Source: Panorpa germanica
Lineage: Eukaryota; Arthropoda; Insecta; Mecoptera; Panorpidae
DNA length: 64,000 nucleotides
Reading direction: 5' to 3'
NCBI GenBank assembly: GCA_963678705.1
Contig: OY783209.1
Span: forward strand, 9,982,001 to 10,046,000
This document shows positions 17,948 to 64,000 of the stretch, one piece after another. The notes under the pieces are model-generated. The model did not search any database. It had not been told where the DNA came from and was given only the letters and a program-made list of their open reading frames with translations. The translations under genes were made by a program, and so were the position numbers. Each line of letters opens with the position of its first letter. Position 1 is the stretch's first letter.

Positions 17948-20900
17948 TTATGTTTTTAAATTTATTTTACACTTCTCTAAAATATCTTTTCTAAGTCTTG
18001 GATAATCTGGATGTATTTTCAACACTTGTTGACAGACATCCATTGCATCGGCGTATCGTTTAGTTTTCATGTGATTAAACGCAAGTCGATATCCAATCGC
18101 AGGGTTAGATCCTCCCCCGTAATTCCAAGCGTGTTCATATTCTATGGCTGCACTACGGTACAACTGCTCTTTTTCAGCTATAAATCCACTTAATTCATAC
18201 GCTTTAGTACACGACTTATTATGTTGCAAAACTCGCTTGAGAAGTTCGTTAGCAATATCGTATTTACCGGATTGCGTATAACAATCAGCTAGTAATAACC
18301 AACATCTTTCAAGATATTCCGCATCTTCAAAAGTCCAAGTGGTTTTGGATACACGTTTCAGTTGATTACGAGCTCTTTGCGAATTTTTTTGTAGTAAGTA
18401 AGCAGATGCCATTCCTAAAATGGGTCCAACATGATCTCGGTATTCAATTTGCGATCCTATAGCGATAAAATCTTGTAAAGCACGTTCTATGTTCATTTTT
18501 TGTCTTGTTGCTAACAGAAGAAAATTCCCTAATAGTCTGTGATTTAGTGCCTCATTATCCATGCCTCCTAAACGTGGTTTTAGTTCTTTAAGAAGCCTTT
18601 CTGCTGTTCTAAGAGCCATACTTCTCGAATCACGATATTCAGCATCATCTAGAATATCAACTCCTGATTCTCCCATTAAATCATCATCGGGATGGAGACA
18701 GATTTCTATCATGTTATAAATAGCTTGTTGTCCCCATTCTGGATCTCTACGCGCATTATTGAAGTGACGCAAAGCTGCATTCGGATTGCCTGAATACCAT
18801 TCATATAATGCTTTGCAGTATGACAAACCTATTAATGAATTATATTATTATTTATAACATAAATAAGAAACAAAAGTACACTTTATTAGTAATATTAACC
18901 GGGTTCGTGTGTGGGTCTTTGGCAAGCTTGTTCAGCTTTTTCTATAAAAGCTGTGGCATCCTTAAGCGTAGCAGATCGTCGCATGACTTCCAAAAGGCGT
19001 GCCAATGCCGTCCAATAGGTAGGTTGGGTTGAAAGAAGTTGGGTAAAATGATATGCTGCTGTTTCGAAATCCACCTATTCCAAATAGAAAAATTTATAAT
19101 ACTACTGAACATAATACAACAATTTACAGTTTCAAAATTTCAATTACTTTTCTGAATGCTAAATCTGCCATCATTACAGAAGCCGCTTCATTATTCGGCT
19201 CAGATTGTAGCAGCATTGTGCAAGTTTGTTGGCATTGGTTTAATTCATTTACCTTAAAATATTTTTTTTATTAATTCCATATATTTTATCTCAGTAAAAA
19301 CAATAGAAAAATTGTATTACCTGCATATAAAGCCTAGCGAGAGCAGCAAGAATGGTAGCGTTCTGAGGTGAAAACTTTAGAGCCTCTTTATAATGTTGAA
19401 TCGCTTGTTCAGTATCTCTCAAATGAGAACATTGCTCCGCCATTAGAACGCAAATATGAGAAGATAATCGACGTTGATCAGAAAGTGTGTTTACTGTAAA
19501 TATAATAACTCATTGTGAGCAATGTAGAAGAATATAGTCTCGCAAATACCAAATATGGACGTTACTTTCATGTAACATTCTTACATTCCATGTAATATTT
19601 ATCTAACGCAAAACCTATTAATATATAAATAAGTCTTGTATAAATGAGTCTTATTTTACAGCTATTATAAAGTATTCTTAAGAAATTTTATGATTATGTT
19701 AATGTGCAGAGTAGATTTATTTTTCAAGATGCAGTAAACTAGGTCACAAAACGTTCTACGTTAGGAAAAATTGTTTACGTCACAAGTAATTTTTGTTATA
19801 TTAAGTAAACCTTAAATACATGTAAATATGTTTATCGGGTTGACGATATTTACCTGACTGTTCAACAGAAACTCGCTTTTGCACGCGATACTGATTATCT
19901 CTAGCTTCCTTAAGACAAGATAGAGATCCCGTTAAATTTCCAGCCTTCTCACGAATTCTTGATAATAGTAACAATTGTTTGGTTCTGATTTGCAAAACAC
20001 TTAAATCATCTATTATTCTAGTATTATCTAGTTCGCTTTGAAGCGTCTTTTCAGCATTTTCGTATTGCTTCAGTTTCATGTAAAGTTCAGCCATATCTAG
20101 TTTTAAATGCGTGTTTTCTGAATTACCTACAACGTCCTTATAGTAACTTATTGCCTTAGAATATTGGTGTGTTTTAACAAGAGCGCGACCCATTTTGCTT
20201 GCCAAAGCAGAATCATTAGGACTTTGTATAATAGCTTGCTCATATGCTTCAATTGCGTGGTCAGGTTCTAAAATAATGATAGTAAAAAGAATTGCATTTT
20301 GAAATGAATATACATGATATATACTAGTAATATACCTTGAATTGATATATAAGCATCTCCAAGCATGACATAGCTTTGTGGACCTGGGCAATGTTCAACA
20401 AGTTCTCTAAAACATTTTGCAAATGCCTGACGATCTTTAGAATTGTGGAGATAAATTGCAGCCATTCTCGTATGTGCTTGAAGATAATATGGTTGCGACG
20501 GAGAAATACTTCCAAGCAATTCCAAAGCTTGTTTTGTATCACCGCATTGTAAAGTAAATTCTGCATTTGCTATTATGATACGACCTTCTTCAGTGGTGTG
20601 TCGAAATTCATCTAGCGCATCCTGTTCGATTACATTTTTAAGATGCATTACTACAATAATAATATAAATTGAAGCATAATTTTATCTTATTACCTGCATA
20701 ACTTTAGCAGCTTCAACTTGCTGATTCTGAGCCATATGAGAATCAACCAGTTCGAGATATAATGTAACTCTATCAGATAAACCTAATGCGTACTCATTTT
20801 TTTGTTTAGATTTTGAAGGGCTATCGTGTTTAATTCCTGACAAGTCCATCGCTATTGAAAGACTCTTCAAACTATCGTCAAATTGTGAATTTTGTTTCTG

Positions 20901-22628
20901 TACTATTCCAGTTATTAAATGATACAGTGAATTTTCACGAACTTTAAAATTATAACTCAAACAAACTTCTAAACTTTGTGATGCTTTTTGATAAAGACCT
21001 TGTTGTATATAAATTTGGGCTATCAATAGATGTGCATCAGAATACGTTGGATCCAGATCTTCCAAAATTCTTTGAACCGTAACACAAGCTAGACTTATAT
21101 TTCCGCTTAAAAATTGTACTCGTGCTAGTTGATAAACACCATCGACTAAACCTGGACAAGACTTGACTACAGCTTCTAAAATATTCATACTCTGTTTTAA
21201 CGAAATATGGAGCTCATTATCAATCGAGGATTCGTTTTTAGATGATTGTGTTGGGCTGTATTGTAAATATTCTTTTGCAACTTGCAATAAAAAATCGGCA
21301 TCGAATTTTCGCAAATAATCAGCTCCATAAGACAACTGTTGCAAATTTTTGAAGTGGGTTTCTATAGTCTCATTTAACATTGGAATAGCTCGTTCTGGGT
21401 AATTAGTTAATAATTTTGCGGACATGAATAACAATAAAGGAGGCTTATTATTTGCAACTTGTAGTTCCGTTAGAAATTCAAGTTGCTGACTAATCTGCTC
21501 CGATGGGCCTGATTCAGACAACTGACACAAAGTTAATCCACATAACGCACTAATGGAGCTATCATCCACTTTAGTTGCAGAGCGGTACAATCTTAACGCT
21601 TCTTTATATTTCCCCTGAAGCAAACATTGATATCCTAACTCGGTTATAAAATCAGCGTTTGTTGCATTTAGCTGCGCTGCTGTTTCTGCAAATTTATAAG
21701 TTTCAGATAAAATTGTCATATTTCTACCACAAACTCTTGAAAATAATTGAGCCGTTTGTAAAAATAAATTCGCATTTTTTGATTCGTTCTTTTCCATTAT
21801 AGTAAAAAGTTGACCAAGAAGATTTCCAGCCGATGAATAGTTACCATCTCTACATATTAATATAATCAATTTGACTTTTAATGCTTCTAAATTATGTGGG
21901 AAGGTTGTAAGGATTCGTAAAGATGTTTCCAAAGCTTGCTCCCAATCCCAATTGGAGAGTTGTATATTCATCTTTTCTAAAAGAGGAACCAATGATTTTG
22001 GGTATTTAACAATCAGTTTATTTATCAAAGATAATGCAGTTTCAAATTCATTTTTAGTCTGGTAGTATTTTATTTGTCCAAACGAAGCCTCCATATCTTT
22101 ATTTTGTTTTAACGCAGTATCGAAATATTCTAACAGATTGTCACCATTTTTATTATCATTATTCATAAAAATCTCAATCCAACCCTTCAAAGCTAAGGCA
22201 TTGACAAAATTAGCGTTTGCTTTTAAGCATTTGTCAATATATTCTTGCGCATTGTCCAAATTTCCTGATAGAAACTGAAATATAGCTGCATAGTACATTG
22301 GCATGTATGACGCTTTACGACGTTCATCTTTCAATTTATTATCTAATACTGTTATTGCTTCTTTATCGACAACAGCACATTGTTTATGTGCATGAATAAG
22401 TGCTAAACATGTCCCTAACATAACATTACTATCACCTTGAAGGGTAGTTAATTCTCGAATACCTTCTTGTACTCTGTTTCCAAGAACAAGTGATACACCA
22501 TTGTAAAAGCGAAACACGTTATCTCTTGGAAACTTCGTCATTCCTTCCAAAGCAACAGCTTGCATACTATGATAATACTTTTCTCGCCCATAATAATGTA
22601 TGGTTGCTCTTAATTCCTGCTCATCCAT
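17948..22628 (-). CDS. tetratricopeptide repeat protein 21B (IFT139), IFT-A subunit
   Basis: Seven exons on the minus strand: 22628-20694, 20621-20336, 20267-19854, 19493-19321, 19252-19148, 19074-18900, 18828-17948; 1322 aa, against about 1316 aa in human TTC21B. The N-terminus MDEQELRATIHYYGREKYYH and C-terminal stretches (CKALYEWYSGNPNAALRHFN; MIEICLHPDDD; SCTKAYELSGFIAEKEQLYR) align along the whole length with TTC21B. It is a solenoid of TPRs with no other domain, forming the core of intraflagellar transport complex A, which drives retrograde transport and entry of membrane cargo into cilia. In insects cilia are restricted to sensory neurons and sperm, so expression should be narrow. For exon 2 I use the acceptor at 20622 because a nearer one would give an immediate TAA; the resulting join KVMQ-DALDEF matches the human protein. 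Confidence 0.95.
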
Positions 22629-22782
22629 TTTATTAGTTAGTAATATTCAGAAAAAAATGAAATGATGTTATCTCAATATTATTATCCAAAATAAAACACA
22701 AGTTCCTTTAATTCATTATGTTTATAATGATGCTAAGCATAAGTTGTACAAGCTCGGTGACTACTTTAAATTCAATTCGTTT

Positions 22783-57891: not shown

Positions 57892-58556
57892 ATTGCCACC
57901 AACGTATTTTTAGTTATATTTTTTATTTTTTTTTATTTATTTGATACAACATGAATATTTCAAACATTTTAAAATAAAAATAAAAATTATTTGTTTAATT
58001 TGTGGTTTCAATTATTCATTTTGTCTGACCTAAAATCTAAAGCGCCTTTAGGAGCAACAGAACTACACAAATTTTGTACAGAACTTTGTTCAAATGTTCG
58101 GCGTATAAGTAATATTTCTGCCTTCTCTCACTATAAATAGGCTTGTAAACTCATATTTTAATAATTTAAATGAAAATATCTAAAAAGTGTTATTTAGGTT
58201 GTATATACTCTTGGCGCAAAAAAATCTGTGCGCCATCTATTAAATAAATGATAAAGCATATATATTTTAAATACTGCTCTTCAATAGATGTGCTAATAGA
58301 AGCTCAGATTTTTGTTAAATAGTTAAAAAAAATTGGGTTTTATGCGTTTTATGCTACTATTAATGGATACTGAATTATGCTACTATTAAATATCTACGCT
58401 ATTCTGGTTTTTATGCGACCTTTCTTAAATTCATGGACATTATTTTTAAAAGAAAAGTTAAAAATTTTAATAATTCAACATTAGGAACAAAAGATCAAAC
58501 TTACAAATAAATTTATAATATATTGGAAATAGCATGTATACAATATGAGATTTCTG
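57892..58556. other. dynein 3' UTR and start of repeat-rich region
   Basis: Contains the poly(A) signal at 57973-57978. An isolated diverged repeat unit (CTGGTTTTTATGCGACCTTT near 58405) is related to the array at 58.7-61.2 kb. Confidence 0.5.
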
Positions 58557-61362
58557 GATAATATTGCGCCTGGCAGAGTGGCAACACTACTTACGAGCAA
58601 AATTTTCTCTACAAGAAAGTAATGAATTTCGCAATTATTTTGTGACAATATTCACATACTGAATGTAACAACTAATTAGTGACGTTTTAATGCAGTTACG
58701 TTAATGAGGCTTTAAAATAAAGAACTGCTTCATGGTTCATTACATTTTAAATATTTACGCGATTTTGGCTTTTATACGACCCTTTTTTGTTTTCACGTAC
58801 ATTTTTAAAAAAAGATTAAAATCCATTTTCTTAAAAAAAAGTTTTGATGGAGTTATGTTCGTCATGCATTAAAATGAGAAACTGCTTCATTACAATTTAA
58901 ATACCTTTGCGATTCTGACTTTTATGTGACCTTTTTTAAATTCATGGACTTTTTTTCTAAAATTTTTTTTTTGCATTTCTTGAAATATTTTGATGCAGTT
59001 ATGTTCGTTAGGCTTTAAAGTAAATAACTGCTTCATTAGATTTCAAATATCTACGCGATTCTGGCTTTTATGCGACCTTTTTTAAATTCATGGACTTTTT
59101 TTCTAAATTTTATTTTTTGATTTCTTGAAATTTTTTGATGCAGTTATGTTCATTAGGCTTTAAATTAAAGAACTGCTTCATTAGGTTTCAAATATATACG
59201 CGATTCTGGCTTTTATGCGACCTTTTTTAAATTCATGGACATTTTTTTCCAAAAATTTTTTTTAAATTTCTTAAATTTTTTTGATGCAGATATGTTCGTT
59301 AGGTTTTAAATTAAAAAACTGCATCATTAGATTTTAAATATTTACGCAGAAACTCAAAAAATTGCATTGCTCTTAAAATCAAAAAAGTCAACCTTTTCAT
59401 CATTTTTAACAAGATTATAGTCTTCTTTCATTACATACTCCGATAAAGAGATTTAATATATTGATATATCATAACCTAAAATACTTATTTAAAAATGAAT
59501 TATAAACATGAAATCAGCATTTAAAATTAAGTTAAAATCCGTTATAAAATGACATATATTTTTCTTAAATTTTTATGAAAAGTAAGAAGAGTATATAACC
59601 TTCTTACTGGACATTTTCCTCAAAAAGAAAAAAATTACATTTTCTTGAATTTTTTTGATGCAGTTATGTTCGTAATGTTTTAAATTAAAGAACTGCATCA
59701 TTAGATTTTAAATATCTACGCAGGAACTCAAAAAATTGCATTGCTCTTAAAATCATAAAAGTGAACCTTTTCATCATTTTTAACAAGATTATAGCCTTCT
59801 TTCATTGCATACTCTGATAAAGAAATTTAATATATTGATGAAGAAGAGTATAACCTTCTTACTTTTCATAAAAATTTAAGAAAAATATATGTCATTTTAT
59901 AACGGATTTTAACTTAATTTTAAATGCTGATTTCATATTTACAATTCATTTTTAAATAAGTATTTTAGTTTATGATATATCAATATATTAAATCTCTCTA
60001 TCGGAGTATGCAATGAAAGAAGACTATAATCTTGTTAAAAATTATGAAAAGGTTCACTTTTATGATTTTAAGAGCAATGCAATTTTTTGAGTTTCTGCAT
60101 AGATATTTAAAATCTAATGATGCAGTTCTTTAATTTAAAGCCTAACAAACATAACTGCATCAAAAAAATTTAAGAAATTTAAAAGAAATTTTTGGAAAAA
60201 AATGTCCATGAATTTAAAAAAGGTCGCATAAAAGCCAGAATCGCGTAGGTATTTAAAATGTAATGAAGCAGTTCTTTAATTTAAAGCCCAACGAACATAA
60301 CTGCATTAAAAAATTTAAAGAAATCCAAAAAAAAAAATTAGAAAAAAAAGTCCGTGAATTTAAAAAAGGTCGCGTAAAAGTCAGAATCGCGTAGATATTT
60401 AAAATGTAATAAAGCAGTTCTTTAATTTAAAGCCCAACGAACATAACTGCATTAAAAAATTTAAAGAAATCCAAAAAAAAGAATTTTAGAAAAAAAAGTC
60501 CATGAATTTAAAAAAGGTCGCGTAAAAGTCAGAATCGCGTAGATATTTAAAATGTAATAAAGCAGTTCTTTAATTTAAAGCCCAACGAACATAACTGCAT
60601 TAAAAAATTTAAAGAAATCCAAAAAAAAAAATTTTAGAAAAAAAGGTCCATGAATTTAAAAAAGGTCGCGTAAAAGTCAGAATCGCGTAGATATTTAAAA
60701 TGTAATAAAGCAGTTCTTTAATTTAAAGCCCAACGAACATAACTGCATTAAAAAATTTGAAGAAATCCAAAAAAAAATTTTAGAAAAAAAAGTCCATGAA
60801 TTTGAAAAAGGTCGCGTAAAAGCCAGAAACGCGTAAATATTTAAAATGTAATGAAGCAATTCTTTAATTTAAAGCCTAGCGAACATAACTGCATCAAAAA
60901 ATTTCAAGAAATCCAAAAAAAATATGTTAGAAAAAAGTCCATGGATTTAAAAAAGGTCGCATAAAAGCCAGAATCGCGTAGGTATTTAAAATGTAATGAA
61001 GCAGTTTTTCATTTTAAAGCATGACGAACACAACTGCATCAAAACTTTTCAAGAAAATTAAGTTTAATCTTTTTTTAAAAATGTCCATGAAAACAAAAAG
61101 GGTCGCATAAAAGCTAGAATCGCGTAACTATTTAAAATGTAATAAAGTAATTTTTTATTTTAGACCATAAAGAACATAACTGTATCAAAATATTTCTAAG
61201 AATCAAACAAAAAAATGTCCCTGAATCAATAAAACTAAAGACATTATTACGCCTGACAGAGCGGCAACATTAATTACGAGCAAAATTTACAAGCAAGTCA
61301 TCATAATGTTTGAAATTATTTTGTGACAATATTTACAGAGTAAATGTAACAATTAATTGGGG
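58557..61362. repeat. large inverted repeat built of ~147-bp tandem units
   Basis: The left half has units whose core is GGCTTTTATGCGACCTTTTT, then AAATTCATGGAC, a poly-T run, TGATGCAGTTATGTTCGTTAGG and AACTGCTTCATTAG. Cores start near 58771, 58921, 59067 and 59212. The right half has about seven units in reverse orientation (AAAAAAGGTCGC followed by TAAAAGYC, near 60219, 60366, 60514, 60659, 60808, 60949, 61098). The two halves meet around an inner palindrome (59470-59600 versus 59850-59990). A ~125-bp direct repeat (GGCAGAGTGGCAACA-type, 58557-58682 and 61236-61362) bounds the whole. No protein is encoded. The layout resembles foldback (FB-like) elements, whose inverted ends consist of tandem subrepeats. 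Confidence 0.8.
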
Positions 61363-62341
61363 CAGAAGAAATATAACATTTTTGCAAAAACATTTTTTTT
61401 AGTTTTTCGAAAATTTCGGGTTTCCTGGAAATTCAGTGAAAAGTCCGAGGACGCCAAAAGTCTTATAATTTTTTTCTCTACGGAGTAGAGAATGTAGATG
61501 CATGGAACAGTTTTCGCAAACGCTGTTGTAATCTTCGTTCATTGTCTGATTTTTCAAGCAAATATTTCACAAATGTACTTCGGGACAAATTGTGTGTTTT
61601 AGTAGATGCATCAAATCAGGCGCATTCTTACTTAAATACTATATACTGATGACGTACACTTTATTTTTAGATAGGTGTTCCGAATTTCGAGATATTAGCG
61701 TGTTAAGGCATACATATAATAATGGTTTCCAATTTTAAAATCAACGTATAAACTATGCTAACAAACCTATTATCAAAATAAAAATGCATTCTTTTCTTGA
61801 AAATTTTAAATGCTAAAACTTGTTAATTTTATAAAAAATATAATTTTTTGTATCCAATTTAACGTAAAGAAAAATACAACAATTAACTGAAACAATTTTA
61901 TTGAAAAAAATATTTAATTACAGTAGAATATTTATAACTAGTATCAGTCAATATATTTATAATACTAAATGTATATAGATAATAAAATCTTCTGTACAGA
62001 ACAAAATGAAAAAGTGGTAGATATACTATCTACTGAAAAAAAGAGAGAAAAATACTCTTTCATTAAATTAGATTTTTCAAACATACGGTATGGTAATCTT
62101 AAAAAAAATATTATTATACAACATATTTCGTAAAAGTTCTATATAATGACAAAAAATGTTTATAAATTAAATACTACGAATTTTAACATAAAGAAATGAA
62201 TTGTAATTTTCTAATATCAGTACTTTTTCTCTCATGAATTATGAAAGTTAAAATTAACTTGTTTTATCACAAAGTTATCACAGAAACATCAAGATGTCAA
62301 AGAACTCTCTCCTACTTTGTATTCTAAATATAATTTCATTG
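61363..62341. other. AT-rich sequence; innexin 3' UTR on the right side
   Basis: No exon or repeat recognised. The innexin (minus strand) stop is at 62344-62342, so its 3' UTR should occupy the right part. Confidence 0.5.
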
Positions 62342-64000
62342 TTAAACGATTTGGTTATCAATTTCATGTCCAATATCCATCAGCAGATCTCGGAAAACGT
62401 CTGGATTCAGATTCTTACAGACTTGTTGTAGCACAAACCAGTCGCCAGCGTGGCCTGCACGTACTAGAGCTCGAACAGTTTTACGTGGAACGCTAAAAAA
62501 AATATTGCTTTCATTAAACAAATATCTGCCTACACTCACATTTAGTAAATAATACATTAAATAATAAAACGTTATGCAATGTTAGTTGATTTCAGGTATA
62601 TAAAATGTAAGCTGTATTTAAGAAACAACAAAAGATTAAAAGATATTATTAGACTTAAAATGTACTGCATATCTAATTATTCAAAAGGTTTATAAATTAG
62701 AAGAAAAGAAGAAAATCGAGACCAAATAATAAATTTTGCAAATAGTTAGCAATATTATTGAAAAATTATATTTATAGATTTAGAAACGTTCAATATGATT
62801 GTATTTTACAGATGAAACACAAAATATAAGCTGTAAGCACTTAAAAGAAATTCTGTTTATGAAAACAATCTAAATTAGATAAATTTATAACAATGAATAT
62901 ATAGATTGTCTGTGTCATAGATAAATGTATCATTGATTTTATCTCTCGAATCATTTGTCAGCGATAGAGTTGTGTTAGAAATGATAAAATATATTCAAAA
63001 AATATCTTTCAATGCAAAATTTGTTAAATGTTATTATGATTGTATGCTCGAATAGGTGTTGCAATTATTTTAAATAATAGTACTCCGTAAATGCTTCATA
63101 CTTATAGGTTTGAGACATCAAAATCCATACGCGTAGTTCTGGGCAAATCATAACTAAAGCTCGATAGATGAGGACCAATCCAGATATGAAGGCCAGGGCA
63201 ACAAACCAAAACCATAGAAAAGCATAAATTTTCTCATTAACAATATTTAATGGCAAAATACAGAGTGCATCCTTCTTTTGTACTGATCCAGAGGGTCCAT
63301 AATCAGTAAAATCGCATTTTGCAACTTTTGGAAAGAGCTGCAAAGACATAATATAGACTTTTATATACGAGTAAAATTAAATGTTGTAGTTTAGATTCTT
63401 TATACAAACGGTACCCTAACAGTTGGGTCGACATCATTAACTGAAATTGGTTGGTTTAGAAAAGCAGCAACTGCAGGACCATATCCAGAGAATTCAGCAC
63501 CAAGAAAGAAGTCTACTAAAAATATTTGACCAACCTATCAACAATCAAACTGCTTTTAATAATTGTCTTTGTAACTGCAAAATAAATAATACCACAAACT
63601 CGTTTTACCACATTTATAAAGTTAAGAGCTTCACACATAGAAAATCTCAACATGTAAAAAACATGAGTAGATTTGTTGACATTCAGTAAATATTGTGATA
63701 ACATTGTGCGGCGATCTTTGTTCCATTTGTCATTTAGGATTATAGGAGTTGCTGCAAAACGTAATAAATAAATAACTAGAAAACAAGATTCTTATCAGAA
63801 AGTAAATACAAGACTGTAAACTCACTTAAATCCTGTACTAGCATTCGAACTCTTCCTCCTTCCCAACTTTTCCACATATATCTTGGAACGTAAAACAGCA
63901 GAGCTTGGAATGTCAGAACAATGCAAACCCACTGATAGTATTTATGATGAATGACTTCATCAACTTCATTTACAGAAGGTCCAACACCAGCGTAAGCTAC
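62342..64000 (-). CDS. innexin gap-junction protein (3' part; 5' end off right edge)
   Basis: Five minus-strand exons are visible: 64000-63826 (partial), 63751-63609, 63534-63415, 63337-63102, 62492-62342; 274 codons of C-terminal sequence, all phase-consistent. Diagnostic innexin signatures: YYQWVCIVLTFQALLFYVPR leading into MWKSWEGG (the YYQW motif of the second membrane helix), CEALNFINVVGQIFLVDFFL (third helix), the extracellular loop with FPKVAKCDFTDYGPSGSVQK and ALCILPLNIVNEKIYAFLWF (fourth helix). The cytoplasmic tail is short: RALVRAGHAGDWFVLQQVCK to NQIV. Innexins assemble into invertebrate gap junctions and hemichannels. The first two exons (start, first membrane helix, first loop) lie beyond the window. 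I cannot assign the paralogue number. Confidence 0.93.

Follow-up and report, generated by a model that had tools for sequence, protein, structure and literature searches.

The inverted array of tandem units near the right end of the analysed stretch (hereafter the window: 64,000 nt, corresponding to C6:9982001-10046000 of the 464-Mb Panorpa germanica genome in 249 contigs) raises the question of what kind of element it represents and where this element begins and ends. The original prediction described ~147-bp units running in opposite directions on the two sides of an inner palindrome, all bracketed by a ~125-bp diverged direct repeat, and considered, among others, a novel foldback element and a satellite seed. 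The comparisons presented below indicate that the locus is very probably a decayed copy of a non-autonomous Helitron with a palindromic body, i.e., an element joining foldback anatomy with the ends and the insertion mode of Helitrons. No open reading frames (ORFs) of at least 100 aa were found within the window copy, and the window gave no match to phage DNA. Elsewhere in the window, likeness to a TPR-rich TTC37/SKI3-like protein and to an innexin is presumed for the ORFs at 17948-22646 and 63065-63376, in keeping with a genome of insect-like type.

The use of the TRF tool indicated two window arrays of period 146, at positions 58842-59347 (3.5 copies, 88% match) and 60100-61216 (7.6 copies, 88%), and self-BLAST, which pushed the start of the left array out to 58685, aligned the two in inverted orientation (58685-59605 vs. 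60753-59841, 88%, 926 columns). The opposed orientation of the units was therefore confirmed, and their length was corrected from 147 to 146 bp (spacing 145-148). With the layout of other loci taken into account, the left arm comprises ~4.5 units on the minus strand (58685-59347) and the right arm ~7.6 units on the plus strand (60097-61216). The inner palindrome was also recovered, as an inverted pair of ~250 bp in the centre, of which the left arm (59348-59602, plus strand) was distinguished through inverted pairs in other copies and the right arm (59849-60096, minus strand) through arm pairing and comparison with other loci. The left side of the centre additionally carries a partial unit (59641-59717, minus strand), recognised by comparison with other loci, and a second, partial inner sequence (59722-59839, plus strand), which makes the centre asymmetric; the asymmetry of another copy, L042, is its mirror image. 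Among the longest gap-free arm pairs there was 59096-59595/59849-60348 (500 nt, 94% complementary). The predicted RNA fold of 58685-61216 has a minimum free energy of -1185.5 kcal/mol, with 852 of its 1008 pairs bridging both sides, compared with -485 to -631 kcal/mol for five equally long stretches taken from elsewhere in the window.

The bracketing direct repeat is real (58562-58677 vs. 61245-61358, 80.7%, 119 columns in self-BLAST). However, it does not mark the boundary of the element, since a partial 146-bp unit lies to the left of the bracket, beyond the earlier-reported start (58386-58451, minus strand, BLAST 77-92% to array units), and the homology of the right flank to other copies continues to ~61488; with the flanking pieces included, the whole structure spans 58386-61488. 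It had been argued that these repeats were too long for a target-site duplication (TSD), and this held: judged by their matches to other loci, both are Helitron 5' subterminal sequence, the right one at the position typical of the family and the left one a misplaced copy. The right-hand piece (61236-61488, minus strand), located beside the right arm and devoid of the tip, aligns piecewise with the sequence that follows the right arm in L009, L011, L012, L019, L021, L025, and others. The extra left piece (58557-58677, minus strand) matches positions 247-349 of the 360-bp 5' region of L011 in the same orientation as the right-hand one, and a stretch of ~105 bp adjoins it. An LTR/TRIM interpretation of the direct repeat was rejected because of this 5' subterminal identity and because, within the 25 loci compared below, no other one has the repeat in direct orientation on both sides.

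A search with a 300-bp query from the right array gave 1679 candidates in the genome, and the 40 scored among them contained at least 214 unit matches on many contigs. Thus, the lack of further copies, which had been named as grounds for dismissing the element, was not observed, and the many dispersed copies speak against a single-locus or assembly artefact. Twenty loci were fetched from the listed unit matches; as these were mostly high-ranking, the sample may favour long, well-kept arrays. Together with four loci selected for their 3'-end match and the window itself, they constitute the 25-locus set, in which both inverted arms were found in 24 loci and a single arm in L028. Four further loci were fetched by the 3' end or tip, including L049 and L050, chosen for their tips in tandem; nearness to the window partly decided the choice of L042, and L053 was fetched for its two opposed tips 3 kb apart. 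Of the eight loci obtained through the 3' end or tip (L039-L042 and L049-L052), six have both arms; a single arm is present in the other two, accompanied by the central palindrome in L052 and alone in L049. The number of units per arm in two-armed copies ranges from 3 to 24 on one side and from 4 to 15 on the other. Among the matches listed, unit matches crowd toward one end, within a few Mb of it, on several contigs (C9, C10, C11, C13, and C17).

The ends of these copies determine the assignment of the family. A 5' region, whole (up to ~360 bp) or in part, was seen in 14 of the 25 loci, the bracketing repeat corresponding to its array-proximal portion, and in seven (L011, L015, L019, L021, L025, L040, and L042) it stands on the side opposite to a 3' end; L012 is an eighth copy with unlike ends, its 3' end (C17:2273561) lying just beyond the fetched stretch. 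In complete copies, the arm corresponding to the left arm of the window leads to the 3' end and that corresponding to the right arm leads to the 5' end. Neither end was seen in another seven loci (L010, L013, L014, L016, L020, L027, and L028). In L018, 5' sequence shares its side with a divergent 3' end, L017 carries 5' sequence on either side, 5' fragments are scattered within the arms of L023, and two 5' regions are joined head to head in L024; the remaining loci of the set have one kind of end only, or fragments. As in the window copy, truncation or rearrangement may account for all of these loci.

Where complete, the 5' region terminates in TCCTATATTATAATG or close variants, and the TC start expected of Helitrons was found as A|TCC in L009 and L040, A|TCTT in L021, A|TTC in L011 (TT in place of TC, or a T preceding TC), and C|TCC in L012, in which the base before the tip is C. 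One of the first two 5' bases differs in the relatives L045 and L046. The 3' tip folds into a predicted hairpin located a few bases before a CTRR-type end; this end is CTAG in seven of nine cases, ATAG in one, and CTAA in one, and T follows in all nine, partly by choice, as that T was contained in the BLAST query used to find the ends. The 29-base pattern of the 3' tip, allowing up to two mismatches, had 107 matches in the genome vs. none for its reversed control.

Three complete copies, L040 (4426 bp), L021 (4011 bp), and L011 (3400 bp), are each located between A and T. The 5' tip of L040 recurs 33 bp further in, and the outer tip was used. For the joined flanks of L040, 447 candidate places were indicated, and all of the 40 scored cross the junction at 94-99% identity; these empty sites equal the query in length within a base and show no target duplication. 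For example, C6:8316479-8316603 covers positions 36-160 of the query in exactly 125 bases. This indicates that L040 entered another dispersed repeat precisely, between A and T, without duplication or loss. The joined flanks of L021, L011, and L053 revealed no empty sites among the matches listed, which comprised the halves themselves, local copies, or matches stopping at the junction or within three bases of it.

As for the window copy, neither terminus was found: no 3' hairpin with a CTAG end within the window, and no 5' tip within the right flank of the copy. It was assigned to the family through its unit, its inner sequence, and ~250 bp of the 5' region. We conclude that it is a rearranged and decayed relic which has lost both tips and, therefore, should not be able to move.

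The relationship between the two arms was analysed on 391 units. Mean identity reached 0.930 for units of the same arm, 0.922 for units from opposite arms of one element, and 0.908 for units of different elements, the last value being equal for like and unlike arms. The identity between an element's own arms (0.9168) exceeded that of arms re-paired at random (0.9044, sd 0.0012), with none of 5000 shuffles as high, in a statistic that kept segmental duplicates in. Consequently, the arms are not two old lineages, and those of one element share history, for which conversion, joint copying, or recent duplication might account.

The centre, in turn, differs in orientation between the window copy and its nearest fetched relative. 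Window positions 58685-60531 align to L042 2143-315, across the centre and in flipped order (90%), the longest match of the window among the fetched copies, yet the ends of both elements point the same way. In L009, L020, and L021, extra centre pieces lie only to the right; L022 and L026 have them on both sides, and L028, the copy without a right arm, has them on the left. Moreover, two copies have a 3' end on both sides, with no 5' end found, and each lies between A and T: L051 (C19:5453600-5458100, 3.2 kb) and L053 (C6:1043900-1047240, 2.96 kb), whose two outer 60-base ends are identical. Recombination between arms would be the simplest common cause of the flipped centre and the double ends. 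Separate insertion or duplication events may also have given rise to the double-ended copies, since a satellite-like repeat stands in the flanks of L053 partly as inverted copies (65 matches in 85 columns) and the joined flanks of this element gave no empty site.

A satellite-like repeat of 87-88 bp, in which the motif AGTATAACCTTCT is frequent, adjoins several copies (L014:5297-5769, L027, and the flanks of L053) and occurs also at C21:1.03 Mb and C14:7.56 Mb. It resembles part of the inner sequence of the element, and the motif itself is present once in the window, at 59847.

Based on these comparisons, a complete element consists, in the 5' to 3' direction, of the TCCTATATTATAATG tip, the ~360-bp 5' region, n units in one orientation, the inner sequence, its inverted counterpart, n oppositely oriented units, the 3' hairpin, and CTAG. 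Such a palindromic element would move as one piece, presumably by means of the Rep/helicase of autonomous Helitrons present in the genome; by analogy with the biology of Helraiser, this would involve a nick at the 5' end, unwinding toward the 3' hairpin, and insertion between A and T. Inverted duplication of a one-armed array Helitron may have created the palindrome itself, and later exchange between the arms, through recombination or gene conversion, could flip the centre and change unit numbers. The same exchange might yield copies with two 3' ends (L051 and L053), the copy with 5' sequence on both sides (L017), and the misplaced 5' fragment of the window. An extension of this scenario, which we regard as unlikely but worth stating, is that a rolling-circle lineage has turned foldback, with arm recombination producing 5'-3', 3'-3', and 5'-5' forms, of which at least the 3'-3' ones (L053 and L051) can transpose into AT sites as inverted-repeat elements in their own right.

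Among the alternatives, a true foldback transposon of the FB, Tetris, or Galileo type, moved by cut and paste and equipped with long terminal inverted repeats (TIRs) built of tandem units, is the one suggested by the anatomy. The locus does have long inverted repeats of tandem units, the internal logic is that of Tetris (inverted unit arrays around a middle domain, with TIR repeats of ~220 bp; PMC4079207, in the part available), and inverted repeats reach both ends of L051 and L053, which carry like ends on both sides. However, in L011, L015, L019, L021, L025, L040, and L042 they do not, a 3' hairpin with CTAG facing a 5' region on the opposite side, and L040 was inserted precisely between A and T without duplication, whereas TSDs of 8-10 bp are described for Tetris in that part of the same source. 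An FB/Galileo/Tetris-type element was rejected on account of the unlike ends and the lack of a TSD in L040, and the probability left to it is very small. The prediction of a novel foldback element thus stands insofar as the element is mobile, foldback-shaped, and present in other copies, and is not supported as regards the FB type, the ends being those of a Helitron.

A less improbable alternative, still an unlikely one, is that the palindrome does not move as a unit, but represents two separate array Helitrons inserted tail to tail or a local inverted duplication of a one-armed element. L049, a one-armed fragment in which units are followed by a 3' end, the head-to-head 5' regions of L024, and the partly inverted flanks of L053 are in agreement with it, and the founder or the double-ended copies may have originated in this way. 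On the other hand, one centre and one layout recur at dispersed loci, and the two-armed L040 is a single 4.4-kb insert in an otherwise intact repeat. The slightest chance of all is given to a satellite locus whose arrays multiplied through unequal exchange together with segmental duplication, Helitron ends being mere neighbours. The variable number of units per arm (3-24 and 4-15), the clustering of unit matches on some contigs (among the matches listed), the location of some copies within segmental or tandem duplications, and the lack of any Helitron end in seven of the 25 loci would fit such a locus; against it stand the order of 5' region, arm, centre, arm, and 3' end conserved in eight copies, one of which (L040) is a precise insertion. 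The locus might conceivably act as a satellite seed, as considered earlier. One palindromic copy, L050 (C1:27401250-27407850), is part of a ~6.5-kb tandem duplication, both borders of which share one 3' end and its flank.

Comparison with known systems places the palindromic Helitron beside several described elements. Helibat/Helraiser has a 5' TC, a 3' hairpin just upstream of CTAG, and A|T insertion (PMC4778049, in the portion available), and the 5' TC, the 3' hairpin with CTAG, and the A|T target recur in the family described here. In contrast, the termini of Helibat/Helraiser lack inverted repeats and that portion of the source mentions no palindromic body, whereas ~3-4 kb of each complete copy here is one inverted array. 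Like the Helentron-associated DINE-1 elements with their central repeats and the oyster Cg_HINE, the family is non-autonomous and array-bearing, with a unit of 146 bp; Cg_HINE is a rolling-circle element with repeats of mostly 140-180 bp, one cluster of which averages 146 bp, but its array keeps one orientation to the flanks "without exception" (PMC7492417, available text), while the arrays here are inverted. For some shuffled oyster loci, a review mentions arrays running in different directions (PMC12628747, as far as available). HINE/DINE elements have subTIRs as their ends and T-rich or TT targets (PMC4067079; PMC2374699, accessible parts of both); the present family has CTAG|T ends, A|T insertion, and inverted arrays.

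The inverted tandem-repeat arrays around a middle domain are shared with Tetris/FB, and Tetris repeats also build satellite-like arrays; the unlike ends of eight copies and the absence of a TSD in L040 differ from the TIRs and 8-10-bp TSDs of Tetris (PMC4079207, available sections). Inverted-repeat elements are also represented by ATons of Aedes, inserting at AT, and maize Heltirs, whose inverted repeats resemble Helitron 3' ends, with which L051 and L053 may be compared; ATons are described as small and without known autonomous elements, and the word "tandem" is absent from the available text of that paper (PMC3422177). A Helitron-derived tandem unit of similar length, 154 bp, occurs in Helitron-2 of Drosophila virilis, where the repeats are reported to be transcribed and processed to piRNAs; the accessible description contains no inverted arrays (PMC12910113). 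Among the titles and abstract openings surveyed, no Helitron family with inverted arrays was recognised. The family described here joins a foldback body to Helitron ends.

The 5' region is not confined to the palindromic elements. At first look, 2485 candidates were obtained for the 5' tip region vs. 170 for the 3' end, and L043 (reverse strand, 72-801) is a compact Helitron of ~730 bp that has the 5' region in common with the family and terminates in another 3' hairpin and GCTAG|T. Since the same 5' region is found with another 3' hairpin, the 5' end belongs in common to a larger family. Read-through is a known behaviour of Helitrons, and the palindromic family may have gained its 3' part in this manner.

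The genome contains 893 candidate Helitron Rep domains, of which 150 were scored, with open frames of up to 1489 aa. Among the matches listed, these are densest on C2 and C5, and a large set of Rep places shares one bit score and a 1119-aa open frame. The autonomous-looking pair L047/L048, ending in a hairpin and GCTAG|T and otherwise having other end sequences, is 98.6% identical, which suggests, from the sequence likeness, a recently active autonomous Helitron. Nevertheless, it was rejected as the partner of the palindromic family, for the 3' plan is common to both and the sequence is not. L049, a one-armed fragment near gene-like ORFs, and L050, a palindromic copy, were rejected in the same role. 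No Rep match lay within 10 kb of a 3' tip among the matches listed, as compared by eye, and no autonomous Helitron with the exact ends of the palindromic family was found among the autonomous family fetched and the Rep and tip matches listed. Helitron 3' ends at C19:10974123, 10979365, and 10985016 (L049) follow one another in steps of 5.2 and 5.7 kb and are separated in L049 by gene-like open frames (637 and 479 aa), which suggests tandem duplication of a gene together with a Helitron fragment.

Current models of Helitron movement involve a single-stranded stage which terminates at a small 3' hairpin. An element consisting almost entirely of one multi-kilobase inverted repeat, yet precisely copied into a new site, constitutes a natural test of this single-stranded model. 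Should the lineage have turned foldback as outlined above, kilobase hairpins would be no block to rolling-circle transposition, and an origin would be provided for Heltir, the AT-inserting ATon, and similarly puzzling elements with inverted repeats. Furthermore, a rolling-circle element here carries a candidate dsRNA precursor, which might, as the original prediction held, also serve as a piRNA precursor if transcribed, and repeats annotated as foldback elements or inverted satellites may in fact be Helitrons.
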